Of a stretch of DNA of 64,000 bases, positions 3,076 through 53,761 are shown piece after piece; the stretch's first letter is position 1, and every line of letters begins with the position of its first letter. A program made the position numbers and the translations under genes. Source of the stretch: an uncultured Oscillospiraceae bacterium. GTDB taxonomy: Bacteria; Bacillota; Clostridia; Oscillospirales; Oscillospiraceae. The notes below the pieces were generated by a model, which saw nothing but the letters and a program-made list of their open reading frames with translations, was not told the DNA's origin and searched no databases. The stretch spans positions 1-64,000 of the forward strand of contig CANQRQ010000004.1 of NCBI GenBank assembly GCA_947626315.1, written 5' to 3'.

Positions 3076-3293
3076 GCGTGTCGCTTTTTGCGACACGCTT
3101 CAAATGCGACCCACTGCGTTGGGCTCGCATTTGAGGGCTCGCGCTGATCGCAGGGGCTTCGCCCCGTTTGGTCGGCGCGAGGGCTCGCCTTGCTCGCCTT
3201 AGAGTGTTTTTGAGGCGGCAAAGCTGCCTCAAAAACGATTTAAATTCTTTTTCGCCGCTCTGCGGCGAAGGCAGTGAAACTTTGTCTACAGAC
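3076..3293 (+). repeat. Multi-hairpin dispersed repeat, copy 1
   Basis: A 218-bp element made of consecutive stem-loops. In order these are GCGTGTCG..CGACACGC; CAAATGCGA..TCGCATTTG; CTCGCGC..GCGCGAG enclosing GGGGC-ttc-GCCCC; GTTTTTGAGGC..GCCTCAAAAAC; and TCGCCGC-tct-GCGGCGA. It ends in ACTTTGTCTACAGAC. It lies between the 5' side of the DegV gene and the 3' end of the thioesterase gene. Open frames across it are by-products of the palindromes. Related copies lie at 8298, 51241 and 53541 (inverted). Together with the terminator at 3296 it fills the gene-free stretch 2989-3341. Confidence 0.93.
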
Positions 3294-3295
3294 CA

Positions 3296-3327
3296 AACTC
3301 CCCCTGAAATTGGCTTCAGGGGGAGTT
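3296..3327 (-). terminator. Terminator of the aminotransferase/thioesterase operon
   Basis: Perfect 13-bp inverted repeat AACTCCCCCTGAA / TTCAGGGGGAGTT with a short loop, directly after the thioesterase stop on the minus strand. The T tract is short. It abuts the end of the hairpin repeat copy 1. Confidence 0.7.
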
Positions 3328-3341
3328 CTATCCGTTGTTTA

Positions 3342-3734
3342 TCAGCCCTTTTTGGCCAGGGCTTTGGCCAGGAAGCGCTCATTGAAGACGATGCAGCGCT
3401 TGTGCGTCCCCTGGCCGATCAGCTCCTCCCCGGCCCAGGCGGACACCCGGAAGCACAGGGTCCTGCCCTCCACCGCCGTCAGCTCGCTCTCGGCCCGGAC
3501 CGCCATCCCCAGGGGCGTGGCTGCCAGGTGGGCGATGTCCAGCTCGATGCCCACGGTGCCCTGCCCCTCTTCCAGGAAGGGCTGCACCGATTCCAGCGCC
3601 GCCTTCTCCATGAGGGCGATCATGCTGGGGGTGGAGAAGACCTCCAGCGCCCCGCTGCCCACAGCGGCGGCGGTGTTTTCCTGGACGACCACTGTCCGGG
3701 CAGAGCCCTTCAGGCCGGGAACCAGGCCGTTCAC
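3342..3734 (-). CDS. Hotdog-fold thioesterase (FlK-like)
   Basis: Small acyl-CoA thioesterase-like protein of 130 aa, resembling the fluoroacetyl-CoA thioesterase FlK family. Visible family features are the segments TVVVQENTAAAVGSGALEVFSTPSMIALME and GTVGIELDIAHLAATPLGMAV, the latter holding a His, and the C-terminal RCIVFNERFLAK. The start is GTG at 3734, which overlaps the aminotransferase stop as GTGA, so the two genes are coupled. The physiological substrate is unknown. In other gut Clostridia such proteins are thought to clear toxic or dead-end acyl-CoAs. Confidence 0.85.
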   Translation of the reverse strand: MNGLVPGLKGSARTVVVQENTAAAVGSGALEVFSTPSMIALMEKAALESVQPFLEEGQGTVGIELDIAHLAATPLGMAVRAESELTAVEGRTLCFRVSAWAGEELIGQGTHKRCIVFNERFLAKALAKKG

Positions 3735-4912
3735 AGGGCTTCCTTAATGACCTCGGCCAGGCGCTTGATGCCCTCCACGATGCGCTCGTCCGGCATGCAG
3801 GAGTAGTTCAGGCGCATGCAGCACTTGGTCTCGCCGGAGGGATAGAAGCCGTCGCCGGGGACGAAGGCCACGCCCTTCTCCAGAGCCTTGGCGGCCAGGT
3901 CCCGGGTGTTCACCTGCGGCGGCAGCTCCACCCAGGTGAACAGGCCGCCGTCCGGGTCGGTGAACTTGGCCTCGGGCGGGAAGTTCTCCTTCATGGTCTG
4001 GATCATCAGCTGGCAGCGGTGCTTGTACACCTCGCGGATCTTCTCCACGTGCTTGTCAATGTCGAACATCTCCAGGTATTTGGAGATGACCATGGCGGTG
4101 ATGGTGGAGGTCTGGAGCACGGCGCCCTGAGCGATCAGGTTCAGCTTGCCCACGATCTCGTCGCTGGCGCAGGTCCAGCCTACCCGGAAGCCGGGGGCCA
4201 GGATCTTGGAGAAGGTGCCCATGTAGATGATCAGGCCCTCCGTGTCCAGGCTCTTCAGGGCGGGCTGATACTCGCCCTTGAAGCGCAGGTCGCCGTAGGG
4301 GTTGTCCTCGATGGCGGGGATGCCGTGCTTCTTGATGATCTCCATGAACTGCTTGCGCCGCTCCAGGGGCCAGGTGCGGCCGCTGGGGTTCTGGAAATCG
4401 GGGATCACGTAGATCAGCTTCACGTTCTCGGTGGTGGACAGGATCTTGTCCAGCTCCTCCATGATCATGCCGTTGTCGTCCGTGGGCACTTCCACGAAGT
4501 TGGGCTGGTAGGCGTTGAGGGCGTTGATGGCGCCCAGGTAGGAGGGGCTCTCCAGCACCACCACGTCGCCGGGGTTCAGAAACAGCTTCCCGCAGAAGTC
4601 CAGGCCCTGCTGGCTGCCGGCGGTGAGAATGACGTTGTCCGGGCTGGTGTGGATGGCGTTCTTGTCGGCCATGCGCTGGACGATCTGCGCCCGCAGGGGA
4701 GCCCAGCCCTCGGTCTGGCCGTACTGAAGGGCGACCTGGCCCTGCTCGTCCAGCACCGCGTCCATAGCGGCCTTGATGTCCGCCACCGGGAAGAGCTCAG
4801 GGGCCGGCAGGCCGCCGGCAAAAGAGATGATGTGGGGCTGGGCGGTGAGCTTCAGCAGCTCGCGAATGTCGGAGGCCTTGATCCGGCCCATCCGATCGGC
4901 AAATTGCACCAT
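3731..4912 (-). CDS. PLP-dependent aminotransferase, class I/II
   Basis: Fold-type I aminotransferase of 393 aa, close in pattern to the 2-aminoadipate/LysN and MocR-type transaminases. Features seen are IISFAGGLPAPELFP near the N-terminus, the cofactor-contact motif TAGSQQGLDF, PDFQNPSGRTW, the Asp/Tyr site AIEDNPYGDLRF, and the Schiff-base Lys in GTFSKILAPGFRVGW. The ATG at 4912 follows a good AAGGAAGG ribosome site. A much longer upstream reading in this frame runs antisense through the YyaL gene and is not real. It forms an operon with the downstream thioesterase. The exact amino-acid substrate cannot be assigned. Confidence 0.93.
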   Translation of the reverse strand: MVQFADRMGRIKASDIRELLKLTAQPHIISFAGGLPAPELFPVADIKAAMDAVLDEQGQVALQYGQTEGWAPLRAQIVQRMADKNAIHTSPDNVILTAGSQQGLDFCGKLFLNPGDVVVLESPSYLGAINALNAYQPNFVEVPTDDNGMIMEELDKILSTTENVKLIYVIPDFQNPSGRTWPLERRKQFMEIIKKHGIPAIEDNPYGDLRFKGEYQPALKSLDTEGLIIYMGTFSKILAPGFRVGWTCASDEIVGKLNLIAQGAVLQTSTITAMVISKYLEMFDIDKHVEKIREVYKHRCQLMIQTMKENFPPEAKFTDPDGGLFTWVELPPQVNTRDLAAKALEKGVAFVPGDGFYPSGETKCCMRLNYSCMPDERIVEGIKRLAEVIKEAL

Positions 4913-4978
4913 ATTTTTCCTTCCTTTCTGTTCCTTCCTGTACTTGTTCCGTTCCATAAAGTGGGTTCTTCTATGTAT

Positions 4979-5007
4979 TTTATACCATAAATTTCCCTGT
5001 ATGTAAA
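4979..5007 (-). promoter_or_regulatory. Candidate sigma-A promoter for the aminotransferase operon
   Basis: On the minus strand TTTACA (5007-5002), a 17-base spacer and TATAAA (4984-4979) precede the start at 4912 by about 65 bases. Confidence 0.55.
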
Positions 5008-5061
5008 CCATAAATTGTTCAAAAAGACAAACAAGTTGCCCATCAATCCAAATTCCCCGGC

Positions 5062-5091
5062 TTGCGCCGGGCCCGGCAGCCGGTGTATAAT
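5062..5091 (+). promoter_or_regulatory. Candidate sigma-A promoter for the YyaL gene
   Basis: TTGCGC (5062-5067), an 18-base spacer and a perfect TATAAT (5086-5091) lie about 70 bases before the start at 5162. It is divergent from the aminotransferase promoter. Confidence 0.6.
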
Positions 5092-5161
5092 AAAGCCGCG
5101 TCTTATCCAAGCTATTACGGACAGCGCGGCTGTCGGAAGAATACAGAGCGGAGGGTCCGTC

Positions 5162-7150
5162 ATGAGCAACAGCCTGATCAACGAAAAATCCCCCTATCTG
5201 CTCCAGCACGCGGAGAACCCGGTGGACTGGATGCCCTGGGGCGAAGCCGCCTTTGCGCGGGCAGAGCGGGAGGACAAGCCGGTTTTCCTCAGCATCGGCT
5301 ACTCCACCTGCCACTGGTGCCATGTGATGGCCCATGAGTCCTTTGAGGACCCCCAGGTGGCGGAGCTGCTGAACCGGGACTTTGTCTCCGTCAAGGTGGA
5401 CCGGGAGGAGCGCCCGGATGTGGACGCGGTCTACATGGAGGTCTGCACCGCCCTGAACGGCAGCGGCGGCTGGCCTCTCACCGTGCTGATGACGCCCCAA
5501 AAGCAGCCCTTCTTTGCCGCCACCTATCTGCCGAAGGACAACCGGGGCGGCCGCCTGGGTCTGCTGGGCCTGCTGACGATGATCGCCGCCAAATGGCGGC
5601 GGGACCGGGAGGAACTGCTGGCCGCGGGGGAGGAGATCTGCGCCTGGGTCTCCCGCCGCCGCCCCCTGGGCGAGGCGGAGCCGGACCAGGCCTTTCTCCA
5701 AAAGGCGGTGGAGCAGTTCAAGGCCTCCTTTGACGAGGAGTACGGCGGTTTCGGCGCCGCGCCCAAATTTCCCTCCGCCCACAACCTGCTCTTCCTTCTG
5801 CGCTACGCCGCCCTCTCCGGGGACAAAGCCGCCCGCCGCATGGCGGAGCGGACGCTGCAGCAGATGTTCCGGGGCGGGATCTATGACCACTTCGGCGGCG
5901 GCTTCTCCCGCTATTCCACGGACCGGGAGTGGCTGCTCCCCCATTTTGAAAAGACCCTCTATGACAACGCGCTGCTGGCCCTGGCCTATACGGAGGCCTG
6001 GCAGGAGGGACATCTGGCCCTGTATCGGCAGACGGCGGAGGCCGTGCTGGACTACTGCATGCGGGAGCTCCAGTCCCCGGAAGGGGGCTTCTACAGCGGC
6101 CAGGACGCGGACAGCGGCGGGGAAGAGGGGGGCTACTACGGATTCCGCCCCCAGGAGATCCGGCAGCTGCTGGGCGAAGACCCGGGACGGCATTTTGCCG
6201 AGTGCTATGACATCACCGAGGAGGGCAACATGGGCCGGAGCGGCAAGAGCGTGCCGAACCTGCTGCTGAACCAGCGCTGGAACCTGCTGCCCGAGGGTTA
6301 TGAGGACTTCCGGGAGCGGCTCCGGCTCTACCGGGAGCAGCGCGCCGCCCTGCCCACGGACACGAAGATCCTCACCGCCTGGAACGGGCTGCTGCTCATG
6401 GCCCTGGCCAGGGCCGCCTGGGTCTTTGACGACCCCCGCTACCTGGCCCAGGCCCGGCGGCTGGCCGGCTTCCTGCGCGCCTATGCCTTTGCCGGGGAGG
6501 AGCCGGGCAGCCTGCAGGCCTGTGTCTACGGGACGGAGAGCCGCTTCGGCGCCCGGCTGGAGGATTTTGCCTTTTATGCCCTGGGCCTGCTGGAGCTGTA
6601 TCAGGCGGATTTTCACACAGAGGACCTGGTCCTGGCGGCGGCCCTGGCCGAAGAGATCCCCCTCCGGTTTTCCGCCGCGGGAGGCGGGTACTATATGACC
6701 GCACGGGGCGCGGAGGAGCTGCTCAAGCGGCCCATGGAGAAGTATGACGGGGCCATGCCCTCCTCCAACAGCGCCTGCGCCGTGCTCTTTGATCGGCTCT
6801 CCCGGCTGACCGGGGCGAAAAAGTGGCGCGAGGCGGCGGAGGAGCAGCTGCGCTTCATCTGCCGCAGCGGGGAGAGCTATCCGGCGGGGCACGCCTTCGG
6901 CCTGATCGCCCTGCTCAGCGCGGTCTACCCCACCCGGGAGCTGGTCTGCGTGGCGGAGAAGCCGCCGGCGGCGCTGAAGAGCGTTCTGGCCCGCTACGCG
7001 CCGGAGCTCAGCGTCCTGCTCAAGCGGCCCGGGGACGAAGCGCTGGAGGCGCTGGCCCCCTTTACCCGGGAGATGCGGATGCAGGGAGGCAAGCCCACCT
7101 TCTATCTCTGCTCCGGCGGAAGCTGCGGCCTGCCGTTCACAGTGGAATAA
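5162..7150 (+). CDS. Thioredoxin-domain protein, YyaL/DUF255 family
   Basis: Protein of 662 aa related to YyaL and mammalian SPATA20. The N-terminal thioredoxin-like domain (about 1-170) carries the redox-type motif Cys50-His-Trp-Cys53 in [16 protein letters not shown], followed by the conserved DREERPDVD and GGWPLTV segments. The remainder is an (alpha/alpha)6-barrel-like region with conserved [11 protein letters not shown] and [20 protein letters not shown], as in glycosidase/epimerase folds. The ATG at 5162 has GGAGGG upstream. The reaction is not established for the family. It is a monocistronic gene closed by a bidirectional terminator. Confidence 0.9.
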
Positions 7151-7153
7151 AGC

Positions 7154-7195
7154 AAAACCTCCGGCTCAACTTAAAAAATGAGCCGGAGGCTTTCT
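7154..7195. terminator. Bidirectional terminator
   Basis: CCTCCGGCTCA / TGAGCCGGAGG (11 bp) is flanked by A-rich and T-rich tracts. It sits between the convergent YyaL and YtvI-like genes and can serve both. Confidence 0.85.
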
Positions 7196-8264
7196 ATACG
7201 CTCTTCCAGAGCTTGATAACGCCCTTGTCGTTCAATTGCTGGAGCGTCACGAAGAGGAGGGGGAACAGCAGCATCCCCCAGACCCCCCAGACCCGCCAGC
7301 CCACATAGATGGCGATCAGGGAGGCCAGCGGGTCCAGCCCGATCTGGTCCCCCAGCAGCTTGGCCTGGGCGCAGCTGCGCACCAGGTTTACCACCGCCCA
7401 GCAGATCAGCAGGCCGATGGCCCGGCTGTATTCCCCCAGCAGCAGGCAGTACAGGGCCCAGGGGATCAGCACCGTGCCGGTGCCGAAGACCGGCAGGGCG
7501 TCGATGAGGGCGGTCAGGGCGGCGAGGCCCGCCGCCCCCCGCACCTTCAGCAGCCAGAAGCCCAGCAGCAGCTGGAAAAAGGTCATGGCCATGAGGATCA
7601 GCTGGGCCCGGAAGAAGCCGCCGAAGCTGCCCTTCAGGTCTTGCCCCAGGCCCTCCAGCCGCCGCCGGAACTCCTGGGGAAGCTGCGCCGCCAGAAAGGC
7701 GGTGACCTTGGGAAAGGCCGCGGAGATGAAATAGGTGCCGATCCCGGCGGTGACGGAGAAGAGCAGCACGTCCGGGCTGGCCTGGGCCGCCCGGCCCACC
7801 GCGTCCAGGGTCCACTGGGAAAAGCGGGAGGGGAGCGCCCGCAGCGCGGCGGACATAGAGTCCAGCGCGGTCTCCAGATAGCCGGAGACCCCCTCCGGCG
7901 CGTTGGCCACCAGCTCCGCCGTCCGGCGCTCCAGGGCCTCCAGCCGCTCCCCGGCGGCGGCCATCAGCGCCGGGGCCTGCCGGGCAAAGTCCGTCACCGC
8001 CCCGATGCCCTTGGCCGCCAGGGCCGTGAGCCCCCACAGGGCCAGCGCCAGGATCGCCAGGGTCAGAAGTCCCGCGGCGGTGCCCCTCCGCCAGCCCCGG
8101 CGGGCCAGGCTCCGCACCGCCGGCTCCATCGCCGCCGCCAGGGCCAGCGCCACCAGAAAGGGGGCCGCCCAGGGCAGAAAGAAGCGCACCGTAAGCCAGA
8201 TGGCCCCTACCGCCGCCCCGGCGTACAGCAGCAGGGAAAAACAGCGCATGGCCCTCTGCTGCAC
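7194..8264 (-). CDS. AI-2E transporter-family membrane protein (YtvI-like)
   Basis: Polytopic membrane protein of 356 aa in the AI-2E/PerM exporter superfamily. It most resembles the sporulation integral membrane protein YtvI. There are two N-terminal helices, a hydrophilic amphipathic region (about 90-160), then five or six more helices with the family motifs LIDALPVFGTGTVLIPWALY and LGDQIGLDPLASL. The frame stays open into the upstream repeat element, but the GTG at 8264 follows a strong GGAGGTG site at ideal spacing and is taken as the start. The transported substrate is unknown. Confidence 0.85.
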   Translation of the reverse strand: MQQRAMRCFSLLLYAGAAVGAIWLTVRFFLPWAAPFLVALALAAAMEPAVRSLARRGWRRGTAAGLLTLAILALALWGLTALAAKGIGAVTDFARQAPALMAAAGERLEALERRTAELVANAPEGVSGYLETALDSMSAALRALPSRFSQWTLDAVGRAAQASPDVLLFSVTAGIGTYFISAAFPKVTAFLAAQLPQEFRRRLEGLGQDLKGSFGGFFRAQLILMAMTFFQLLLGFWLLKVRGAAGLAALTALIDALPVFGTGTVLIPWALYCLLLGEYSRAIGLLICWAVVNLVRSCAQAKLLGDQIGLDPLASLIAIYVGWRVWGVWGMLLFPLLFVTLQQLNDKGVIKLWKSV

Positions 8265-8297
8265 AGCGTTCACCTCCCGCAAAAAGGTCCATACTGA

Positions 8298-8534
8298 GCG
8301 TGTCGACAAAGTCGACACGCTTCAAATGCGACCCACTCGTGCCCTGCGGGTACTTCGTTGGGCTCGCATTTGAGGTACTCGCGCTTATCGCAGGGGCTTT
8401 GCCCCGTTTGGTCGGCGCGAGGGCTCGCTTTGCTCGCCTTAGAGTGTTTTTGAGGCGGCAAAGCTGCCTCAAAAACAATTTGAATTCTTTTTCGCCGCTC
8501 CGCGGCGAAGGCAATGAAGCTTTATCAGCAGTCT
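8298..8534 (+). repeat. Multi-hairpin dispersed repeat, copy 2
   Basis: A 237-bp copy of the same element. It begins with the perfect palindrome GCGTGTCGAC-aaa-GTCGACACGC and ends GCTTTATCAGCAGTCT. The loop of the second hairpin carries an extra 20 bases (GTGCCCTGCGGGTAC region) absent from copy 1, itself a small hairpin. This copy lies between two divergent genes, so it is upstream of both. An apparent 63-residue frame on the minus strand is a palindrome artefact. Confidence 0.93.
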
Positions 8535-8597
8535 TCCATACTCTTTTCTTGCCAGATTTCCCCGCCTTTATACGGCACCCAGCCCGCCGGCGGCGTA

Positions 8598-8725
8598 TAT
8601 AATAGGGTAGCCGCCCAAAGCGGCCGGTACGCCCCCGGCAAAGGGGGCCGTATGACATCAGAACAGCCGGACGGCGCCGGCGGGCCGGTTTTGGTCCCGC
8701 CGGGCTCCGGCGTTGGAGGAAACGC
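8598..8725 (+). promoter_or_regulatory. Promoter and GC-rich leader of the aspartate kinase gene
   Basis: TATAAT at 8598-8603 is a good -10 box, though no clear -35 box precedes it. The roughly 120-base leader that follows can form several GC-rich hairpins (TACGCCCCC..GGGGGCCGTA, then CGGCGGGCCGG..CCCGCCG). It does not match a lysine riboswitch or T-box that I recognise. Whether it regulates the gene is open. Confidence 0.4.
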
Positions 8726-9688
8726 ATGCTAATCGTGCAGAAATTCGGCGGCAGCTCCCTCGCCGATGTGGAAAGACTGCGCCGGGCCGCCGGAATATGC
8801 CTGGAGGCCCGGCGCGGGGGGCACAGAGTGGTTGTAGTGGTGTCCGCCGCCGGCGACGGGACAGACGACCTTCTGGAATTGGCGCGGCAGATCGATCCCC
8901 AGCCGTCCAAGCGGGAGCTGGACGCGCTGATGGCCACGGGAGAGCAGCAGTCCGCGGCGCTGATGGCCATCATGCTGGAGAGCCTGGGGGCCGGGGCCCG
9001 GTCCTTCTCCGGCTGGCAGGCCGGCGTCATCACCTCGGCCCGGCACGGGGAGGCCCGCATCGGCCTGCTGCTGCCGGACCGGCTTTCAGAGACCCTGGAG
9101 CAGGGGAAGATCGCCGTGGTGGCGGGCTTTCAGGGCGTCTCCCCCCAGGGGGAGATCACCACCTTGGGCCGGGGCGGCTCGGACACTACGGCGGTGGCCC
9201 TGGCTGCCGCCCTGGGGGCGGACCGCTGCGAGATATACACCGATGTAGACGGAATTTATACCGCCGATCCCCGGCTTGTGACCGGGGCCCGGCTGCTCCG
9301 GGAGATCGACTTCCGGGATATGCTGCTGCTGGCCAAGGCCGGGTCCCAGGTGCTCCACCCGGAGTCCGTGCGGCTGGCCATGGCCAACGGCGTGGCGCTG
9401 CAGGTGCTCTCCTCCTTTGAGAGCGCCCCCGGCTCCGCCGTGCGCCTCCTGGAGGAGGCGGAGCGGCCGGATTATGCCGGGGTCACCCGGGACGAGGCCG
9501 CGGGAACGGTGACGGCCGTGGGCCGGGCCGCCGGGCCCCAGACCCTCTCTCAGCTGGTTCTTCTGCTGGCCGGGGCCGGGGTGCCGGTGCTGGACGGCAG
9601 CGCGGGAGAGGGCTGCGTGTCAGTAAAGGTCGCCCAGGCGCAGCTGCTCCCCGCCCTGGAGCTGGTCCATGGGGCGCTGATCGGATAA
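8726..9688 (+). CDS. Aspartate kinase, short form
   Basis: Catalyses ATP-dependent phosphorylation of L-aspartate, the first step toward lysine, threonine and methionine. Kinase motifs are clear: KFGGSSLADVERL at residue 6, the ATGEQQSAALMA substrate loop, LGRGGSDTTAVALAAAL and TDVDGIYTADPR. At 320 aa it is about 80 residues shorter than the usual monofunctional enzyme of around 400. After the kinase domain only one ACT-like stretch (about 255-320) remains, where two are normal. The ATG at 8726 has TTGGAGGAA upstream. Feedback control by end products may therefore be reduced or different, which is an inference. Confidence 0.9.
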   Translation: MLIVQKFGGSSLADVERLRRAAGICLEARRGGHRVVVVVSAAGDGTDDLLELARQIDPQPSKRELDALMATGEQQSAALMAIMLESLGAGARSFSGWQAGVITSARHGEARIGLLLPDRLSETLEQGKIAVVAGFQGVSPQGEITTLGRGGSDTTAVALAAALGADRCEIYTDVDGIYTADPRLVTGARLLREIDFRDMLLLAKAGSQVLHPESVRLAMANGVALQVLSSFESAPGSAVRLLEEAERPDYAGVTRDEAAGTVTAVGRAAGPQTLSQLVLLLAGAGVPVLDGSAGEGCVSVKVAQAQLLPALELVHGALIG

Positions 9689-9697
9689 AACATACAA

Positions 9698-9756
9698 AAG
9701 GGAGGGACTGTGGGAGAACCGCGACTGCGATTCCCCCAGCCCCGGCTTTTGTCAGG
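9698..9756 (+). terminator. Probable terminator after aspartate kinase
   Basis: An imperfect stem (CTGTGGGAGAA against TTCCCCCAG) is followed by GGCTTTTG. It separates the kinase gene from the feo promoter. Confidence 0.4.
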
Positions 9757-9792
9757 AGAAGAAATAGCGCTGAAAAAATTTTCGCGCCCCTC

Positions 9793-9879
9793 TTGACAAA
9801 GGGAGTTAGAGATGCTAAACTAACGGGCGGTTAGAGAAATCTAATTTTCTTGATGCCAAAAAGTTAGCCATGTCTAACT
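9793..9879 (+). promoter_or_regulatory. feo promoter with three palindromic operator-like sites
   Basis: TTGACA (9793-9798), a 17-base spacer and TAAACT (9816-9821) form the promoter. Three sites of the form AGTTAG-N6-CTAACT overlap or follow it: 9804-9821 (imperfect, on the -10), 9829-9846 (degenerate) and 9862-9879 (perfect). A fourth perfect site precedes feoB. This suggests repression by a metal-responsive regulator of the DtxR/MntR or Fur type. The regulator gene is not in the window. Confidence 0.75.
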
Positions 9880-9897
9880 ACAGAAAAGGAGAGAGTG

Positions 9898-10110
9898 ATG
9901 ATGCCGCTGACATTGGCCCCTCTGGGAGAGGAGAGCATTATCCGCCGGGTGGGCGGAAATCCGGAGCTGAAAAAGCATTTGGAGGATATGGGCTTTGTGG
10001 CCGGAGGCGCGGTAACGGTGGTGTCCGCCATCGCGGGGAACCTGATCGTCAACGTGAAGGAGACCCGGGTGGCCATCAGCCGGGAAATGGCAGGAAAGAT
10101 CCTGGTTTGA
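9898..10110 (+). CDS. feoA: FeoA-family ferrous iron transport accessory protein (first copy)
   Basis: Small SH3-like cytoplasmic protein of 70 aa, thought to assist FeoB. It shows the FeoA pattern: ladder LAPLGEESIIRRVGG, LEDMGFVAGGAVTVV and a C-terminal RVAISREMAGKILV. GTG 9895, ATG 9898 and ATG 9901 are adjacent candidates after AAGGAG at 9886-9891. ATG 9898 gives six bases of spacing and ATG 9901 nine. It is the first gene of the feo operon, directly downstream of the palindromic sites. Confidence 0.9.
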   Translation: MMPLTLAPLGEESIIRRVGGNPELKKHLEDMGFVAGGAVTVVSAIAGNLIVNVKETRVAISREMAGKILV

Positions 10111-10155
10111 CTTTCGCGCGGAAGGCGCGGTGAAAAAAGAGGAGGAGAGAGAACA

Positions 10156-10407: not shown

Positions 10408-10424
10408 GCGGCTTTTTATCCAAA

Positions 10425-10442
10425 AGTTAGAGGATGCTAACT
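10425..10442 (+). promoter_or_regulatory. Palindromic operator-like site before feoB
   Basis: A perfect AGTTAG-N6-CTAACT palindrome, identical in its arms to the site at 9862-9879, lies 20 bases before feoB. It could give separate metal control of feoB or a roadblock within the operon. Confidence 0.7.
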
Positions 10443-10461
10443 AAAACAGGAGGAAGAAACG

Positions 10462-13074: not shown

Positions 13075-13079
13075 AATTG

Positions 13080-13389
13080 AGCGCCTGCGCGTGGAGCAAG
13101 GGCGTGTTATGCGATGAAGCGGGAGATTGCTCGGGCCTCCGAGGTAACTTCCGTGGAGTATGTCCGGCGCCGAAGGCAGCTTCGGCGCGTAATCGGGCGG
13201 CTGAAGCCTATCCGGTGCACGCGTATATCGCGCGGACGGGAGGGATCGACCGGCTGAAAAGCCGGTTTCTTTTTCGGACGCGGTCTGATACGCACGGTTG
13301 TGTGTACAGGAAATGCGGCTTCATCCGTACTATGAAAAACCGGCGGACCCAATGCGCCGGGAACAGTACGAAAAAAGGAGAACAAAGCA
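13080..13389 (+). promoter_or_regulatory. Structured 5' leader of the S10 operon with attenuator-like hairpin
   Basis: About 310 non-coding bases separate the promoter from rpsJ. They contain GCGCCGAAG-gcag-CTTCGGCGC and, at 13250-13275, an intrinsic-terminator-like CCGGCT-gaaa-AGCCGG followed by TTTCTTTTT. This arrangement fits transcriptional attenuation, perhaps by a ribosomal protein such as L4, as in the E. coli S10 leader. That mechanism is only inferred here. The open frames across it lack a ribosome site and family resemblance. Confidence 0.55.
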
Positions 13390-45880: not shown

Positions 45881-45884
45881 GGGG

Positions 45885-46406: not shown

Positions 46407-46972
46407 GGCCAGAGCCGCCGGAGGAGGGCCGCTGCCAGCAGGCCCGCCGCCACCGAGGCCGCCGAGCTGAGCCACACGGCGGGCAGGATATCAAAGGCCG
46501 AGGCGGCCCCCGCCGCGGCCCGGACGGCGGCGATGGAGCTGGGGAGCAGCTGAAGGGAGGCGGTGTTCAGCACCACCAGCAGGCGCAGTTCCTCCTCCGC
46601 GCCGGGGAGCCGGGCCATGCCCTGGGCGCAGCGGATCCCCGCCGGCGTGGCGGCGTTGCCCAGGCCCAGCAGATTGGCGCTGACATTCTCCGACAGGGCG
46701 GACAGCACTTCCCCGTCCCGGGCGGAGCGGGGAAACAGGCGGCGCAGAACCGGCCGCAGGGACCGGGAGAGCAGCCGGGCGGCGCCGCAGCGCTCCGCCA
46801 GCTCCAGCACCGCGCTCCAGAGGCAGACCCCGCCGGTGACGCTCAGGCAGAAGCGCAGAGCCTCCGACGCCCCCTCCATCACCGCCGCGCCGGCCTGGGC
46901 CGTACGGCCCAGAGCCGGGGAGAGAAGGGTGCAGAGCAGGTAGATCCCTGTCAGCAGCAAACCAATAAACAC
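46403..46972 (-). CDS. spmA: Spore maturation protein A
   Basis: Membrane protein of about 189 aa and partner of SpmB. It shows VTGGVCLWSAVLELAERCGAARLLSR, NVSANLLGLGNAATPAGIRCAQGM and a strong final helix. The GTG start at 46972 lacks a well-placed ribosome site; the nearest purine run, AAGGGGG, is 13 or more bases upstream. The A/T-rich upstream sequence may hold a sporulation-sigma promoter (CATAAGGG with an upstream ATA), a weak guess. Confidence 0.92.
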   Translation of the reverse strand: MFIGLLLTGIYLLCTLLSPALGRTAQAGAAVMEGASEALRFCLSVTGGVCLWSAVLELAERCGAARLLSRSLRPVLRRLFPRSARDGEVLSALSENVSANLLGLGNAATPAGIRCAQGMARLPGAEEELRLLVVLNTASLQLLPSSIAAVRAAAGAASAFDILPAVWLSSAASVAAGLLAAALLRRLWP

Positions 46973-47079
46973 CAGGAGATTTCCCCCTTATGATTAAAAT
47001 AATTGAAGAATATTTAAAAATTTCGCTGGTTTTAAGCCATTTTTCTTACAGTGTTTAAGATTTAGACACATTTTCGATA

Positions 47080-47135
47080 TTGACCTCACGGCAGTTTTTT
47101 AATATAATACAATCATATTGTACGAGCTTGTACAA
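47080..47135 (+). promoter_or_regulatory. Promoter and palindromic site of the AbrB-like gene
   Basis: TTGACC (47080-47085), a 17-base spacer and a perfect TATAAT (47103-47108). Ten bases downstream lies TTGTAC-N6-GTACAA (47118-47135), an inverted repeat positioned for repression, possibly by the gene product itself. Confidence 0.8.
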
Positions 47136-47185
47136 AACTGTGCGGCTGTACAACGGGAGACTCACTACAGCGAGGGGGGGAGAAG

Positions 47186-47431
47186 ATGAAGTCGACCGGC
47201 ATAGTCCGCAAGGTAGACGAGCTTGGACGGATCGTCCTGCCGATTGAGATGCGCCGCACGCTGGATATCGAGGAGAAGGACGCACTAGAGATATATGTGG
47301 AGGGAGAGAGCGTTATTCTTCGCAAATATCAGGCCTCCTGCGTCTTTTGCGACAGCGTGAAAGATATCATCGGTTTCAAAGGAAGGAACGTCTGCACGGA
47401 CTGCATCAACAAGCTCAAAGCGAAGCTTTGA
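47186..47431 (+). CDS. AbrB-family transcriptional regulator with four-Cys tail
   Basis: DNA-binding regulator of 81 aa. Residues 1-48 are close to the swapped-hairpin domain of Bacillus AbrB (MKSTGIVRKVDELGRIVLPI and RRTLDIEEKDALEIYVEG). The C-terminus differs: it carries Cys52-X2-Cys55 and Cys70-X2-Cys73 (CVFC and CTDC), a likely zinc site, in place of the AbrB dimerisation domain. It probably controls transition-state or sporulation genes. The spm genes are divergent to it. Confidence 0.92.
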   Translation: MKSTGIVRKVDELGRIVLPIEMRRTLDIEEKDALEIYVEGESVILRKYQASCVFCDSVKDIIGFKGRNVCTDCINKLKAKL

Positions 47432-47460
47432 GACGAGTTTGGCGAAACGCATAGAAGAGA

Positions 47461-47494
47461 CGGCCAGCCGCGCTTTTCGCGCGGCTGGCCGTCA
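47461..47494. terminator. Bidirectional terminator
   Basis: CGGCCAGCCGCGC-ttttc-GCGCGGCTGGCCG between the convergent AbrB-like and methyltransferase genes. The T tract is weak. Confidence 0.75.
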
Positions 47495-47552
47495 GTTTAT
47501 CAAATTATGAAAAACAATTCTTTTCAACAGGCAGAGCGGCGAAACGGCTGGG

Positions 47553-48278
47553 CTACGGGCGGTGATAGATCCGCCTGTATTCCTCCGTTTCGGAGCCGTC
47601 CGCCCGGCAGAGGAGCAGCTCCGGCTCGATCCTCAGCCCGGGCTTCCCGCCCCGGCGGCCCTCCACCAGCACCAGGCTGGGCGCGGCGGCGGGCCGGGCA
47701 CAGACCAGCCGCAGCCGCTTCGGCTCCAGCCCGGCGGCGGACAGGGCGCAGAACAGCTCCGCCAGCCGCTCCGGCCGGTGCACTACGAAGAAGCTCCCGC
47801 CTGTCCGGCAGAAGAACGCGGCGGCGGCGCAGAGCTCCTCCAGGCTGCAGTCCGTCTCCCCCCGGGCGGCGGCCCGGTCCCGGTCCGGGGAGAGGGGCCC
47901 GGAGCCCAGGGGAAAATAGGGCGGATTGGCCACGGCAAAGTCAAAGCTTCCAGCCCGGAAGAGCTCCCGGTGCCGGCGGATGTCCCCGGCGACGATGCGG
48001 CTGCGCCCGGTCAGGCCGTTTTCCGCCATGTTCCGCTCCGCCAGGGCCGCCGCAGAGGGCAGCAGCTCCAGCCCGGTCATGTGCAGGCGGGGGGAGCGGC
48101 TGAGCAGCAGCAGGGTCAGCGCGCCAGAGGCGCAGCCCAGGTCGATGCCCCGCCCGGCGGCCGGCAGGCGGACAAAATCCGCCAGGAGCACGCAGTCCGT
48201 GCTCAGGCGGGCGTGCTCCGCCTGGGCAAAGACGGGGCCGCCCGGCCAGAGGGGAACAAACAGCGGTTCTCTGTCCAT
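47553..48278 (-). CDS. tRNA1(Val) adenine-N6 methyltransferase-like (TrmN6/YabB)
   Basis: Rossmann-fold methyltransferase of 241 aa. Motif I is GIDLGCASGALTLLLL, the adenine-N6 catalytic motif IV is FAVANPPYF, and the family segment CSLEELCAAAAFFCRTGGSFFVVHRPERL follows. It most resembles TrmN6, which modifies A37 of tRNA-Val. ATG 48278 has a TTGGAGGTTTT site and is preferred over the upstream in-frame codon at 48302. Confidence 0.88.
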   Translation of the reverse strand: MDREPLFVPLWPGGPVFAQAEHARLSTDCVLLADFVRLPAAGRGIDLGCASGALTLLLLSRSPRLHMTGLELLPSAAALAERNMAENGLTGRSRIVAGDIRRHRELFRAGSFDFAVANPPYFPLGSGPLSPDRDRAAARGETDCSLEELCAAAAFFCRTGGSFFVVHRPERLAELFCALSAAGLEPKRLRLVCARPAAAPSLVLVEGRRGGKPGLRIEPELLLCRADGSETEEYRRIYHRP

Positions 48279-48300
48279 AAAACCTCCAAATGAACTGGCC

Positions 48301-48534
48301 AAAAAGGGCTATCGCCCTTTTTGTGCCAAAGGGGCTGCAGCCCAATGCGCGCACTCATTGGCCGCAAAGGCGGCCAATTCGCACACTTTTGGGCTGAGAA
48401 GAGTTTTTCCCGACGTACACGCCGCCGGGAAAAACGATCAAAATGCTTTCGCGCCTGCGGGCGCGAAACTCTGCGAGGCTTTTGTGATAAAGTCGTGTTA
48501 AGAAAAAGGGGCGGAAACCGCCCCTTTTTCTTAA
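48301..48534. repeat. Second hairpin-chain element ending in a terminator
   Basis: A chain of palindromes: AAAAAGGGC/GCCCTTTTT (48301-48322), GGGGCTGCAGCCC (48331-48343), TTGGCCGC/GCGGCCAA (48358-48377), GTTTTTCCCG/CGGGAAAAAC (48401-48436) and TTTCGCGC/GCGCGAAA (48448-48470). A 17-bp terminator-type stem closes it (48498-48534, arm TTAAGAAAAAGGGGCGG). It resembles the other repeat in design but not in sequence. Only one copy is in the window. Open frames across it are artefacts. It fills most of the gap 48279-48541. Confidence 0.7.
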
Positions 48535-48541
48535 GCAATCC

Positions 48542-48712
48542 TCAGCCCTGGGAGATAGCCTCGGCAGGACACTGAGCAGCGCAGGCGCCGCACTCCAGGC
48601 ACTTCTCAGGATCGATCTCGTAGTGCAGATCGCCCATCTCAATCGCCTCGGCAGGGCACTGCGCGGCGCAGGAGCCGCAGGACAGGCACTCGTCGCTAAT
48701 AACGTAAGCCAT
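48542..48712 (-). CDS. Ferredoxin, 2[4Fe-4S]
   Basis: Low-potential electron carrier of 56 aa with two clusters. The first half has CLSCGSCAAQCP and the second CLECGACAAQCP, each with the completing distal Cys from the other half. It starts MAYVISDECLSCG at ATG 48712 after TATGGAGGTAAC and ends before the terminator stem at 48498. It is monocistronic. Fermentative Clostridia use such ferredoxins with hydrogenases and pyruvate:ferredoxin oxidoreductase. Confidence 0.97.
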   Translation of the reverse strand: MAYVISDECLSCGSCAAQCPAEAIEMGDLHYEIDPEKCLECGACAAQCPAEAISQG

Positions 48713-48777
48713 GGTGTTACCTCCATATGTATTTTTTTGACCCTGCCGCCAAAGGCGGCGGGACCACTTGTGAATCC

Positions 48778-48805
48778 ATTGTAACACAACTCCCGCAAAA
48801 ATCAA
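48778..48805 (-). promoter_or_regulatory. Promoter of the ferredoxin gene
   Basis: On the minus strand TTGATT (48805-48800), a 16-base spacer and TACAAT (48783-48778), about 65 bases before the ferredoxin start. The remainder of the gap up to the divergent ClpC-type gene at 48966 is A/T-rich with no clear second promoter. Confidence 0.65.
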
Positions 48806-48965
48806 TTGAAAAATGATGCCGCCTCCTATAAATCCTGCAAAGTTTGGGGATAATTTTCAATGCCGCCGATGCTTTTCGCCGGTTTTGGCGGCGGCAATTG
48901 TGGATAATAATAGTCTGTGCGGGGTTTGTGTCCTTCAGCGGCGCGGAAAAAAGGGGGTAACCACC

Positions 48966-51239
48966 ATGAAAAGCAACGAGAAGTTTACCCAGCGGGCGGA
49001 GCTGGCCATTGAAAAGGCCCGGACCGCGGCCGGAGAGCTGGGCCACAGCTACGTAGGCACGGAGCATCTGCTGCTGGGCATCCTACAGGAGAGCGTCGGC
49101 CTGGGCGCCCGGGTCCTCCGTGCCCGGGGCGTGACAGAGGCCGCTCTGCGCCGGGCGATCCTGGAGACGGACGGCGCCGGCGCGCCGGGCCTGCCGGTGC
49201 AGGGCCTCAGCATCCGGGCCAGGACCGCCGTGGAGCGGGCCGCGGCGGAGGCCGGCAGCCTTCGCCAGGGCTACATCGGCACCGAGCACCTGCTGATCGG
49301 CATCCTCCGCCAGAGCGACTGCACCGGCACCGCGGTGCTCCGGCGCCTGGGGGTGGACATCAACGACATCTATACCGACCTGGTGGCGGTTTTCGGCAGC
49401 CCCTCCAACGGAAAGCCCCAGACCGGCACCGCCCGCGGCACGGCCCGCCGGACGGAGACCCGCGTCCTGGACCAGTACAGCCGGGACCTGACGGAGCTGG
49501 CCGCCGCGGGCCGGATCGACCCGGTGATCGGCCGGGGGGACGAGATCCGGCGGGCCGTCCAGATCCTCTCCCGCAAGACCAAAAACAACCCGGTCCTGGT
49601 GGGGGAGCCCGGCGTGGGCAAGACCGCCGTGGCGGAGGGCCTGGCCCTCCGGGTGGCCCGGGGGGACGCGCCGGAGGAGCTGCGGCAGAAACGCATCGTC
49701 TCGCTGGACATTCCCGCCATGCTGGCGGGCACCAAGTACCGGGGGGATTTTGAGGAGCGGGTCAAGTCCGTTCTGAAGGATGTGCGCCGGGCGGGGGACG
49801 TGATCCTCTTCATCGACGAGCTGCACACCATCATCGGCGCGGGCAGCGCGGAGGGCGCCATCGACGCGGCCAACATACTCAAGCCGGCGCTGGGCCGGGG
49901 CGAGATCCAGATCATCGGGGCCACCACGCCGGAGGAGTACCGGCGGCATATCGAGAAGGACGCGGCGCTGGAGCGGCGCTTCCAGCCGGTGAAGGTCTCC
50001 GAGCCGGACCGGGAGCACACCCTGGAGATGCTGCGGGGCCTGCGGGCGGGCCTGGAAAAGCACCACGGCGTGGCCATCAGCGACGAGGCCATTGCCGCCG
50101 CCTACGAGCTCTCCGTCCGCTATATCAACGACCGCTTCCTGCCGGACAAGGCCATCGACCTGCTGGACGAGGCCGCCGCCGGGCTCCACGTGGCCACCAG
50201 CGGCCGCTCCCGCAAGGGGGTCACCGTCCAGGCGGCGGACGTGGCCCAGGTGGTGTCCCTCTGGACGGATATTCCCGTCACAGGCCTGGACAAGGACGAG
50301 ACGGAGAAGCTGAAGCATCTGGAGGAGCAGCTGAAAAAGCGGGTGATCGGCCAGGACGAGGCCGTTTCCGCCGTGGCCCGGGCCATCCGGCGCAGCCGGG
50401 TGGGTCTGCGGGACCCGGGGCGGCCGGTGGGCAGCTTCCTGTTCCTGGGCCCCACAGGGGTAGGCAAGACGGAGCTCTGCCGGGCCCTGGCCGCCACGGT
50501 CTACGGGGACGAGCGGGCCATGGTGCGGCTGGACATGTCCGAGTACATGGAAAAGCACTCGGTCAGCCGCCTGATCGGCTCGCCCCCCGGCTACGTGGGC
50601 TATGAGGACGGGGGCCAGCTCACGGAGCAGGTCCGGCGCAAGCCCTGGTCCGTGGTGCTGTTTGACGAGATCGAAAAGGCCCACGAGGACGTCTGGAGCA
50701 TCCTGCTGCAGATCATGGACGACGGCCGGCTGACGGACGCCACCGGCCGGGTGGTGGACTTCAGCAACACGGTGATCGTCATGACCTCCAACATCGGCGC
50801 CAAGGCCATTACGGAAAACCGCACGCCTCTGGGCTTTGCCGCCGGGGCGGAGCAGGGGGACGCGGCGCTGCGCCGCCTGGTCATCGAGGAACTGCGCGGC
50901 ACCTTCCGGCCGGAGTTTCTCAACCGGGTGGACGAGACCATCGTCTTTCGCCGCCTGGGCGCGGAGGACATGCTGGGCATCACCCAGACCCTGCTGATGG
51001 GGGTCAAGGAGCGCTTCCAGGCCCTGGGCATCACCCTGGTGGTGCCGGAGGAGACGGCCCGGTGGCTGGCCCGGGAGGGCTATGACGATAAGTTCGGCGC
51101 CCGGCCCCTGCGGCGCGCGGTGCAGCACAGCATCGAGGACGCGGCGGCGGAGCTTCTCCTGGACGGCCGGGCCAAGGCCGGGGACAGCGTGGCCGCCCTC
51201 GTCGCCGACGGAAAGCTGCGCCTGTCGGTGGCTATATAG
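48966..51239 (+). CDS. clpC: ClpC-type AAA+ unfoldase lacking the middle domain
   Basis: Hsp100 ATPase of 757 aa. A duplicated Clp N domain (about 1-140) has YVGTEHLLLGIL and YIGTEHLLIGIL. The first AAA domain has Walker A GEPGVGKTA (about 214) and Walker B ILFIDELHTIIGAG. The second has GPTGVGKTE (about 495) and VVLFDEIEKAHEDV. A TPLGFAA loop near residue 620 matches the LGF-type ClpP-docking tripeptide. Between LLDEAAAGLHVA and VTVQAADVAQVV only about ten residues remain where ClpC has a coiled-coil middle domain of about 50-70. No ctsR or mcsAB genes are adjacent. ATG 48966 follows AAGGGGGTAACC. Confidence 0.93.
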   Translation: MKSNEKFTQRAELAIEKARTAAGELGHSYVGTEHLLLGILQESVGLGARVLRARGVTEAALRRAILETDGAGAPGLPVQGLSIRARTAVERAAAEAGSLRQGYIGTEHLLIGILRQSDCTGTAVLRRLGVDINDIYTDLVAVFGSPSNGKPQTGTARGTARRTETRVLDQYSRDLTELAAAGRIDPVIGRGDEIRRAVQILSRKTKNNPVLVGEPGVGKTAVAEGLALRVARGDAPEELRQKRIVSLDIPAMLAGTKYRGDFEERVKSVLKDVRRAGDVILFIDELHTIIGAGSAEGAIDAANILKPALGRGEIQIIGATTPEEYRRHIEKDAALERRFQPVKVSEPDREHTLEMLRGLRAGLEKHHGVAISDEAIAAAYELSVRYINDRFLPDKAIDLLDEAAAGLHVATSGRSRKGVTVQAADVAQVVSLWTDIPVTGLDKDETEKLKHLEEQLKKRVIGQDEAVSAVARAIRRSRVGLRDPGRPVGSFLFLGPTGVGKTELCRALAATVYGDERAMVRLDMSEYMEKHSVSRLIGSPPGYVGYEDGGQLTEQVRRKPWSVVLFDEIEKAHEDVWSILLQIMDDGRLTDATGRVVDFSNTVIVMTSNIGAKAITENRTPLGFAAGAEQGDAALRRLVIEELRGTFRPEFLNRVDETIVFRRLGAEDMLGITQTLLMGVKERFQALGITLVVPEETARWLAREGYDDKFGARPLRRAVQHSIEDAAAELLLDGRAKAGDSVAALVADGKLRLSVAI

Positions 51240-51240
51240 A

Positions 51241-51638
51241 CTGCTTCAAATGCGACCCGCTTGTGCCCAAAGGGCACGGCGCTGGGCTCGCATTTGAGGA
51301 ACTCGCGCTTATACCCAAAGGGCACAGGTCGCAGGGGCTTCGCCCCGTTTGGTCGGCGCGGCGTCAGAACAACGCTGTAGCGCCATTTTGCCGCGCAAGC
51401 ACGGCAAAATCGGCGGACAGCCTTGTTCTTCCTTAGCAAAACCAAAGCATTTGCTTTGGTTTTGAGAGGAGGCAGAGCGGCGTGAATGAGCTTTCGGCTT
51501 TAGCCGGAAGCGAATGAATGGAGCTTCTGCCGACGTGGCTCGCCTTAGAGTGTTTTTGAGGCGGCAAAGCTGCCTCAAAACGATTTAAATTCTTTTCACC
51601 GCTCTGTGGTGAAAGTAATGAAGCTTTGTCTGCAGTCT
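51241..51638 (+). repeat. Multi-hairpin dispersed repeat, copy 3 (expanded)
   Basis: The same element as at 3076 and 8298, in the same orientation, beginning directly after the ClpC stop. The first hairpin is missing. A small module GTGCCC-aaa-GGGCAC sits in the loop of the CAAATGCGA hairpin and a second partial one follows at about 51313-51329. A 176-bp segment (51361-51536) unrelated to the other copies splits the element. The GTTTTTGAGGC hairpin and the AAGCTTTGTCTGCAGTCT end are intact. Confidence 0.9.
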
Positions 51639-51676
51639 AAAAGGCCCGGGGCTCTGCCCGGGGCCTTTTTCTTCTA
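51639..51676 (+). terminator. Terminator after the ClpC-type gene and repeat
   Basis: AAAAGGCCCCGGGC-type stem (AAGGCCCGGGGC / GCCCGGGGCCTT) followed by TTTTCTT. It abuts the end of repeat copy 3, as another hairpin abuts copy 1. Confidence 0.85.
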
Positions 51677-51764
51677 ATCTGCCTCTTGTAGAGGTTAAGA
51701 GGGCGGATTTTTGAGAAAAAGCTGCGGTTTCTTAAATATTTCTTTATTATTTTAACTGAATCAC

Positions 51765-51793
51765 TTGACATAACACCAAAGACGGGCTAAAAT
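51765..51793 (+). promoter_or_regulatory. Promoter of the RNase Y gene
   Basis: Consensus TTGACA (51765-51770), a 17-base spacer and TAAAAT (51788-51793), leaving a leader of about 170 bases. No other gene is seen between the repeat and the coding start. Confidence 0.8.
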
Positions 51794-51964
51794 AAAACAG
51801 TTAATATTTTGCTTGCGGAAGCCGGGGAGGCTCCGCCTGAATATTACTTTTTAAAACTGCCGGGCCTCTGGCTGCCTTTGGCCCGTCGTCTCTATAAGAC
51901 AATTGAAAAAAGAGCAGCGAAACCACCGCAAAATTCTGAAAGAATGGAGGTGTGTTTACTGACT

Positions 51965-53506
51965 ATGCCACCGATTTTATGGATCGTTATTATAGCCGTT
52001 GTGGCTGTTATCTGTTTTTTGCTGGGCGTCCAGTACCGGAAAAAGGTCGCCGAGCGTGAAATAGTAAGCGCGGAGGAAGAAGCAAAGCGCATAATAAATG
52101 AATCAATAAAGAGTGCGGAGAGCAAGAAGAGAGAAGCTCTCTTAGAGGCAAAGGAAGAAATACACAAAAGCCGCTCGGAGAACGAGCGGGAGATCAAGGA
52201 GCGCCGCAGCGAGGTACAGAAGCAGGAGCGCCGCCTTCAGCAGAAGGAGGAGAGCCTGGACCGGAAGCTGGACTCCATCGACAAAAAGAACGAGACCCTG
52301 AACAACAAAATTGCCGCCGTCGAAGCGCAGCAGCAGGAAGTGGCCAAGGTCAAGAAGGCCCAGCTGGAAATGCTGGAGAAGATCTCCGGCTTTTCCATCG
52401 AAGAGGCCAAGGCCTATCTGGTCGCCAATGTGCGCGACGAGGTGACCCATGAGATGGCCGTGAAGGTCAAGGAGATCGAGGCCCAGGCCAAGGAAGAGGC
52501 CGACGAGCGCGCCAGAGAGATCGTCGCTACCGCCATCCAGCGCTGCGCCGCCGACCATGCCAGTGAGATCACCGTCTCCGTCGTCCCCCTCCCCAACGAC
52601 GAGATGAAGGGCCGCATCATCGGCCGGGAAGGCCGCAACATCCGCAGCATCGAAACTCTCACCGGCTGCGATCTGATCATCGACGATACCCCCGAGGCCA
52701 TCACCGTCTCCAGCTTTGACCCGGTCCGCCGGGAGGTGGCCCGCATTGCCCTGGAGAAGCTGATCCAGGACGGCCGCATCCACCCCGCCCGGATCGAGGA
52801 GATGGTGGCCAAGGCCCAGCGGGAGGTCAACGCCGTCATCAAGGCCGAGGGCGAGCGCGCCGTGTTCGAGACCAATATCCACGGCATCCACCCGGAGCTG
52901 GTTCGGCTCCTGGGCCGCATGAAGTACCGCACCAGCTACGGCCAGAACGTGCTGAACCACTCCATCGAGGTGTCCCACATCGCGGGGCTCCTGGCCTCCG
53001 AGCTGGGCGTGGACGTGAACGTGGCCAAGCGCGCCGGCCTGCTGCACGATCTGGGTAAGGCCATCGACCATGAGGTAGAGGGCAGCCACGTGACCATCGG
53101 CGTGGACCTGGCCCGCAAGTATAAGGAGTCCGAAGCGGTGATCCACGCCATCGAGGCCCACCACGGCGACGTGGAGCCCCACACCGTGGAGGCCTGCCTG
53201 GTGCAGGCGGCGGACGCGATTTCCGCCTCCCGTCCCGGCGCCCGGCGCGAAAACATCGAGAACTATGTCAAGCGCCTGGAAAAGCTGGAAGAGGTCTCCA
53301 AGAGCTTCCCCGGCATCGCCAGCTCCTATGCCATCCAGGCGGGGCGGGAGATCCGGATCATGGTCAAGCCCGAGGACGTCAGCGAGGACCAGATGGTCCT
53401 GCTGGCCCGGGACATTGCCAAGAAGATCGAGGAAGAGCTCACCTATCCCGGCCAGATCAAGGTCCATCTCCTGCGGGAGACCAAGGCCGTGGATTACGCC
53501 AAGTAA
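51965..53506 (+). CDS. rny: Ribonuclease Y
   Basis: Membrane-bound endoribonuclease starting decay of many mRNAs; about 513 aa. There is an N-terminal membrane helix (about 5-25), a long charged coiled coil (30-200), a KH domain with [29 protein letters not shown] and an HD domain with [13 protein letters not shown] and [12 protein letters not shown]. The start is not certain. ATG 51965 gives a typical N-terminus but is 14 bases from GGAGG, while ATG 51944 overlaps that site. The gene is bracketed by inverted copies of the hairpin repeat. Confidence 0.94.
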
Positions 53507-53514
53507 AAACCCGG

Positions 53515-53541
53515 AAGCCGCAAGGGAATCCTTGCGGCTTC
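53515..53541. repeat. Direct repeat flanking repeat copy 4, left
   Basis: A 27-base palindromic hairpin (AAGCCGCAAGG / CCTTGCGGCTT) nine bases after the RNase Y stop, probably its terminator stem. It matches the right flank at 53762-53788 in 26 of 27 positions. Confidence 0.85.
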
Positions 53542-53761
53542 AGACTGTAGACAAAGCTTCATTCCCTTCGCCGCAGAGCGGCGAAAAGAATTTAAATTGT
53601 TTTTGAGGCAGCTTGCCGCCTCAAAAACACTCTAAGGCGAGCCAAGCGAGCCCTCGCGCCGACCAAACGGGGCAAAGCCCCTGCGATCAGCGCGAGTAAC
53701 TCAAATGCGAGCCCAACGCAGTGGGTCGCATTTGAAGCGTGTCGACTTTGTCGACACGCTC
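53541..53761 (-). repeat. Multi-hairpin dispersed repeat, copy 4 (inverted)
   Basis: About 220 bp of the same element in reverse orientation. From left to right it reads CAGACTGTAGACAAAGC, TCGCCGC/GCGGCGA, GTTTTTGAGGC/GCCTCAAAAAC, the CTCGCGC/GCGCGAG structure, CAAATGCGA/TCGCATTTG and GCGTGTCGAC/GTCGACACGC. It is the compact form without loop modules. It lies between two near-identical copies of a hairpin, as expected for an insertion with target duplication. Confidence 0.93.

Follow-up and report, generated by a model that had tools for sequence, protein, structure and literature searches.

Four copies of the element in the window

Positions 1 to 64,000 of contig CANQRQ010000004.1 (assembly GCA_947626315.1, an uncultured Oscillospiraceae bacterium), hereafter the window, contain four copies of a short, hairpin-rich, gene-less element that we describe here as a probable miniature inverted-repeat transposable element (MITE). 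All four copies lie where the initial annotation had placed them, at bounds that we rechecked, and are mutually alignable over their full length. They show the ordered hairpins and the common 3′ end that it had described, and all of them are intergenic, as it had claimed. Its view of the element as non-coding also holds, as no gene was seen inside the copies and the list of open reading frames (ORFs) shows overlapping open frames only. The copies and their surroundings are listed below, together with matches to a covariance model (CM) of the core.

3075..3293, + strand: copy 1 (family I, short form), flanked by genes for a DegV-family protein and an FlK-type thioesterase, both on the minus strand; CM match 3100-3236 (127 bits).
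3296..3327, no strand: terminator-like hairpin (AACTCCCCCTGAA..TTCAGGGGGAGTT) at the 3′ end of copy 1; the other side of the element is without a second copy of it.
8288..8295, no strand: 8-bp direct repeat TCCATACT, left of copy 2.
8296..8534, + strand: copy 2, short form, between divergent genes of the YtvI / AI-2E transporter family (minus) and the aspartate kinase family (plus); CM match 8322-8476 (131 bits).
8535..8542, no strand: 8-bp direct repeat TCCATACT, right of copy 2.
51240..51638, + strand: copy 3, long form with about 178 extra nt, directly 3′ of the stop codon of a Clp-type AAA+ ATPase gene (48813-51239) and upstream of rny; CM matches 51246-51411 and 51437-51581.
51360..51537, + strand: additional long-form module of copy 3, located between hairpins B and M and containing more hairpins.
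51639..51669, no strand: terminator-like hairpin next to copy 3, at its 3′ end.
53515..53540, no strand: first of the two 26-bp repeats that form the target duplication of copy 4, a terminator-like hairpin.
53541..53761, − strand: copy 4, short form, between rny (end 53506) and an ORF with an FAA-hydrolase domain (53779-54684, +); CM match 53599-53735 (126 bits).
53762..53787, no strand: second of these two 26-bp repeats at copy 4, again a terminator-like hairpin, with one base different.

The doubling of the flanking terminator at copy 4, which recurs at further sites, is a feature absent from the initial annotation. A counterpart of the hairpin flanking copy 1 adjoins other elements in the genomes G116, G018, and G048 (G numbers denote genomes, the own genome of the window being G000, and L numbers denote loci). 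A module similar to the extra module of copy 3 was found in five other copies of the own genome (L017, L019, L020, L023, and L025). Elsewhere in the window, an S10-Clostridia ribosomal protein leader lies at 13106-13179, the sole Rfam match of the window at the gathering threshold.

A 3′ end shared with an IS1182-family insertion sequence

Family I has its 3′ end, TTTGTCTACAGTCT(G), in common with two other MITE bodies (families II and III) and with an autonomous insertion sequence (IS) of the IS1182 family in sister species. With at most two mismatches, the end motif CTTTGTCTACAGTCT occurs at 54 places in the own genome versus 3 in a reversed control; the corresponding counts are 53 versus 4 in G116, where part of the places are arms of the 5′ hairpin, and 18 versus 3 in G018. 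The 5′ end reads TCAAGTTGAAGACAAAGTGTCTTCAACTTGA in family II and AGCTTGTAGACAAAGTCCTTTGGACTTTGTCTACAAGCT in family III, and a perfect hairpin stands at the 5′ end of intact copies of all three families. Site tallies were based on 66 distinct sites of families I-III in G000, G116, and G018, excluding end motifs that could not be assigned to these bodies (26 in one tally) and those too near contig ends. The first 45 nt beyond the 3′ end contain a perfect stem of at least 7 bp at 37 of the 66 sites, compared with 11.4% of 1,000 random 45-mers from the same loci. The own genome has 21 sites of family II and 20 of family I; family II sites with the same 3′ end lie just outside the window (G000 contig C4, 64732, 81517, 90175, and 104814) as well as on other contigs. 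At L165 (G116 contig C1), a family III element contains a module resembling the one in the long form of family I, and MITE bodies therefore seem to exchange modules.

The partner IS was found in several genomes of the genus. In G018, the end motif is followed at a distance of 77 bp by a transposase gene truncated at the contig end, and a matching second half is present on another contig; both pieces match the IS1182 model (NF033551) below its cut-off. The complete relative in G041 (L183) is an IS1182 transposase with an NF033551 score of 445 bits (cut-off 270) and matches to PF13751 and PF05598, and this IS is bounded by AGCCTGTAGACAAA and TTTGTCTACGGTCT. Relatives of at least 82% identity were identified in G018, G041, G060, G092, G073, G094, G093, and G085, and any match in 31 of 102 genomes. 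The left ends of the IS at L116, L183, L184, L185, L186, and L197 abut hairpins; the transposase gene at L185 is broken into two frames. The elements themselves are short, multicopy, and intergenic, have no transposase gene, share their 3′ end with the autonomous IS, and show target duplication, as is typical of MITEs. An element with the IS1182-type end at L322 (1229-1423) holds in its body the repeat TGTCATTGCGAGCCAGTG..CGTGGCAATCCG, and similar repeats occur near L183 and in L218.

Target sites and duplicated hairpins

A duplicated flank of 15-42 bp, beginning at most 3 nt from the 3′ end, was identified at 26 of the 66 sites, and 21 of these 26 flanks contain a perfect stem of at least 8 bp. 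All but one of the 26 also adjoin the 5′ end motif, which makes the duplication two-sided at 25 of the 66 sites, and mostly it comprises a whole hairpin. As a control, 30 of 4,290 mismatched site pairs pass a looser, one-ended rule. In clear cases the duplicate spans the hairpin from foot to foot (e.g. 32 bp at L004, 26 bp at window copy 4), and its length varies with the hairpin. At L123, L152, L150, L174, and L136, the hairpins at the two element ends are alike at their feet and different inside, with paired changes in L123 and L152, as if the palindromes had been rewritten after duplication.

Empty sites and repeated insertions in relatives

Empty sites in relatives, which the initial annotation had proposed to look for, were found at the loci of copy 4, copy 1, and L013. 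The copy 4 locus was compared in the best 29 of 99 matching genomes (own included): 25 of these 29 show a hairpin behind rny and lack an IS1182-type end, one is without a strong hairpin, and one is not alignable. At the same locus, G021 and G085 carry other MITEs, each between two copies of its own terminator. For copy 1, eight genomes were queried, of which seven matched and five were judged. Only the hairpin is present in G109 and G012, a 195-bp element flanked by near-identical hairpins in G048, an IS end at the contig end in G018, and a family I copy in the opposite orientation in G116. The site of L013 has a single hairpin in G116 and G018, the two clearly comparable genomes among five searched.

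A different picture was observed between rpsB and tsf, where 26 of 29 relatives have a gap of 62-78 nt that contains a hairpin and is too short to hold the element. The gap of the own genome is 211 nt and contains the core, and the hairpin of the relatives is gone. Since this copy is without both IS-type ends, it is only possible that the hairpin was replaced by transposition.

Copy number and distribution

A BLAST search of the own genome (2.68 Mb in 68 contigs) with copy 2 gave 36 pieces, which visual grouping resolved into about 25 copies (16 short, 6 long, and 3 partial) and three small fragments. Copy 2 DNA matches 57 of 102 genomes of the genus (own included) and none of the 15 genomes that represented other genera of the order. 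The core covariance model, built from 44 diverse copies, matches 41 of 400 genomes and 18 of 106 genera of the family (E ≤ 1e-4, strict filters), the best score going to G199, which belongs to another genus; this search scored at most eight places per genome and gives no copy numbers. Further copies were thus found in the own genome and in relatives by the genome and family searches that the initial annotation had recommended. A pattern scan of named genomes yielded 53 stretches, all in uncultured organisms or metagenome-assembled genomes (MAGs) labeled Oscillospiraceae, Ruminococcaceae, Clostridia, Clostridiales, or Eubacteriales, many from the rumen, and two of the MAGs carry the name Lapin. 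Two cores stand in tandem at L084 (2916-3202).

In rumen lineages, the same core occurs with different terminal repeats and target repeats of 8-10 bp (L032, L034, L051, L065, L077, and L093). The ends at L032 (TTAGGCAATTG..) are TTAGGCAATTGTGAAA and TTAGACAATTGCGAAA with the repeat ATACGCGG, and other ends or short repeats of rumen species are found at L034 (ACTTTATGAT) and L051 (ATTCTGAT) as well. An inverted-repeat search around 69 core copies gave convincing ends in some only, and the second type of end comes from a handful of copies, partly read by eye. In G403, a genome from a genus other than that of the window, the IS1182-type 5′ hairpin and the doubled terminator appear again, clearly at L269 and less exactly at L268 and L270.

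Anatomy and conservation of the core

From 5′ to 3′, the element consists of an optional 5′ hairpin (GAGCGTGTCGACAAAGTCGACACGCT), the hairpins A, B, M, and C, a variable tail, and the end CTTTGTCTACAGTCTG. Hairpin B contains the conserved unpaired internal-loop stretches ATCGC and TTGGTCG, hairpin M has two pyrimidine mismatches, and the GC stem of hairpin C is preceded by a T-run and followed by an A-run. The core alignment left out L057 and L067 (insert between B and M), L136, L166, and cores without a clear hairpin A; the resulting 78 sequences were thinned to 44. The compensatory changes in the stems that the initial annotation had proposed to look for are abundant in this alignment, with few wobble intermediates. 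Both sides have changed in 31 of 45 pairs, giving 166 two-sided cells versus 44.3 in shuffles, and 94.1% of cells are paired versus at most 49.3% when the partners are slid. One-sided changes amount to only 24 cells, 15 of them at one single pair. Outside this pair, a fixed one that is G-T in 28 of the 44 copies, the 1,887 cells of the + strand include 12 G-T and 35 A-C, and hence no G-U excess is seen on this strand; the opposite strand as RNA would fit the wobble counts somewhat better, except for the fixed G-T pair. We read this as a core structure that is kept at the DNA level, through selection or hairpin-templated correction.

The placement of the core relative to genes also shows a pattern. 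The upstream gene is co-oriented in 58 of 85 copies. Of the 64 copies whose upstream gene is co-oriented, 33 begin 0-10 nt past its stop codon and one overlaps the stop codon. The stop codons of these 34 copies are TAA in 22, TGA in 7, and TAG in 5; at L034, the upstream gene seems to take its stop codon from the element. In some relatives, hairpins begin immediately behind stop codons, which may account for part, though not all, of this placement.

Interpretation and alternative explanations

The shared 3′ end, the partner IS, the hairpin preference, the duplications, the empty sites, and the presence of several elements at one terminator can be read from the sequences, and the reading as a mobile element is well supported. 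Very probably, the elements are MITEs moved in trans by an IS1182-family transposase and inserted at hairpins with a duplication of hairpin length. In the mechanism we propose, the transposase would move the gene-less elements in trans and recognize their two ends, the perfect 5′ hairpin containing ..GACAAAG and the 3′ end CTTTGTCTACAGTCTG. Insertion would take place at hairpins, many of them intrinsic terminators, and the element would be joined to both arms of an extruded hairpin or cruciform at their 5′ feet. Gap repair would then produce a complete hairpin on either side of the element, and the flanking genes would keep a terminator after the insertion. Among the three roles suggested by the initial annotation, that of a non-autonomous mobile element is thus favored by the end of the partner IS, the target duplications, the empty sites, and the repeated insertions at the same terminators. 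For a structured RNA, the compensatory changes are present; the one-sided wobble steps are few and the + strand shows no G-U excess, so the RNA role is not singled out. The suggested role of mRNA stabilizer or terminator would find some backing in the terminator-like hairpins of copy 1, against which stand the order of the T- and A-runs at hairpin C and the copy within the rpsB-tsf operon.

Several observations weigh against this interpretation. Neither the own genome nor G116 yielded an IS1182-type transposase, and the helper must therefore have been lost, be unassembled, or be a different one. The 5′ end of the element resembles its 3′ end only in part, and the two IS copies with both ends (L183 and L185) lie between different hairpins. 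By the same rule as above, 41 of the 66 sites show no two-sided duplication; window copy 2 and L008 are flanked by 8-bp non-palindromic repeats, and the G116 copy at the copy 1 locus is without the 3′ end and without a second hairpin. The missing 3′ end of this copy and the broken gene of L185 slightly reduce our confidence in the main explanation. Finally, an IS1182-type partner would not account for the rumen core copies with other ends and 8-10 bp repeats.

In one alternative, the core was carried between bacteria by more than one kind of transposon and its conservation reflects recent mobility together with hairpin-correcting replication errors rather than function. The other ends of some rumen copies (e.g. 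L032) beside IS1182-type ends in species near that of the window, the few wobble steps, and the paired differences between some duplicated terminators (L123 and L152) are consistent with it. However, the unpaired stretches of hairpin B are also conserved, which is not expected from hairpin correction, and we consider this account possible but somewhat doubtful. A conserved structured RNA, either a cis-acting mRNA element or a small RNA, that was spread by mobility and kept for its function would agree with the two-sided changes, the conserved stretches of hairpin B, the presence of the core in 18 genera, and the many starts close behind stop codons. The excess of A-C over G-T (86 versus 23 in a rougher parse) would correspond to G-U if the opposite strand were the RNA, but the fixed G-T pair disfavors such an RNA. 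One-sided cells are also far fewer than two-sided ones, copies stand in both orientations relative to their neighbors, and Rfam gave no relevant match, either in the window at the gathering threshold or at the element in L001, L031, and L032 at a relaxed threshold, which renders a functional RNA unlikely.

The hairpins themselves might be what is selected, with the elements acting as terminators or insulators and not as mobile DNA. Apart from the intergenic position, this would fit a simple promoter and terminator scan, covering copy 1 only, which flags two terminator-like structures (0.7 expected), hairpin C on one strand and the 5′ hairpin on the other. Yet the ends match an IS, targets are duplicated, the T-run of hairpin C precedes the GC stem and the A-run follows it, and one copy lies inside the rpsB-tsf operon, so we give this explanation very little weight. 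Still less credible is an insertion of the elements between identical tandem terminators that already existed. We found no point in its support; relatives have one hairpin at the same junctions, which contradicts it at two loci (partly read by eye), and three species with insertions at one terminator have each doubled their own hairpin (window copy 4, G021, and G085). Group IIC introns likewise sit after terminators, but the window has no Rfam match to them and the terminator duplication does not fit. We tentatively suggest that the target may be read by its shape, by 5′-foot attack on an extruded hairpin so that insertion copies the terminator, and that the four-hairpin core may be a free-standing module that has switched among two or more kinds of transposon ends over many genera of a single family, owing to a DNA structure useful to transposition or to the host.

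Relation to known systems

BOX, RUP, Correia, and other bacterial MITEs are short, intergenic, and multicopy and rely on a transposase in trans, BOX being modular; we know of no whole-hairpin duplications for BOX, RUP, or Correia. The present elements are likewise short, intergenic, and multicopy, but one of their ends is a perfect hairpin and the other is common to three bodies. Most DDE transposons cut with a fixed stagger, and ISfinder lists variable repeats for IS1182. In the open-licence literature we found no published report of whole-hairpin duplication by such elements, a negative that may be wrong.

IS1272 and TnSha1, IS1182-family elements of staphylococci, are described as targeting hairpins without sequence consensus, several of them terminators, with several independent insertions in both orientations in one terminator (PMC5678879, PMC4923244). 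In these accounts, the target hairpin is removed wholly or partly and no target duplication arises (PMC5678879, PMC4923244); the IS1272 study draws whole stem-loop duplication via 5′-foot joining as one possible pathway only (PMC5678879). The elements studied here resemble IS1272 and TnSha1, as portrayed there, in the IS1182-family transposase of the partner IS and in hairpin targets including terminators, and differ from them in often duplicating the whole hairpin and in being mostly gene-less MITEs (PMC5678879, PMC4923244). The hairpin that relatives have between rpsB and tsf is gone in G000, as a removal of the IS1272 type might leave it, but the copy there is without both IS-type ends; 25 of the 66 sites show duplication instead. 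REP/BIME sequences with RAYT transposases (PMC2817692) are also intergenic palindromes with many copies, while the present elements share an end with a DDE-type IS and have target duplications.

Collectively, the elements are best described as MITEs that probably depend on an IS1182-type transposase, with target duplications as long as a hairpin and a core conserved in its structure. The duplicated segment tracks hairpin length, which is what would be expected of an enzyme that reads a cruciform. With 25 natural duplications, empty sites, and terminators occupied in several species, the mechanism is directly testable, and these loci provide natural material for asking how a transposon recognizes the shape of DNA. 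A separate question is raised by a gene-less element that keeps one structure across genera while its ends change. For the biology of these bacteria, the loci show in what way the terminators of a genus can become filled with mobile DNA, an insertion leaving a hairpin on both sides.

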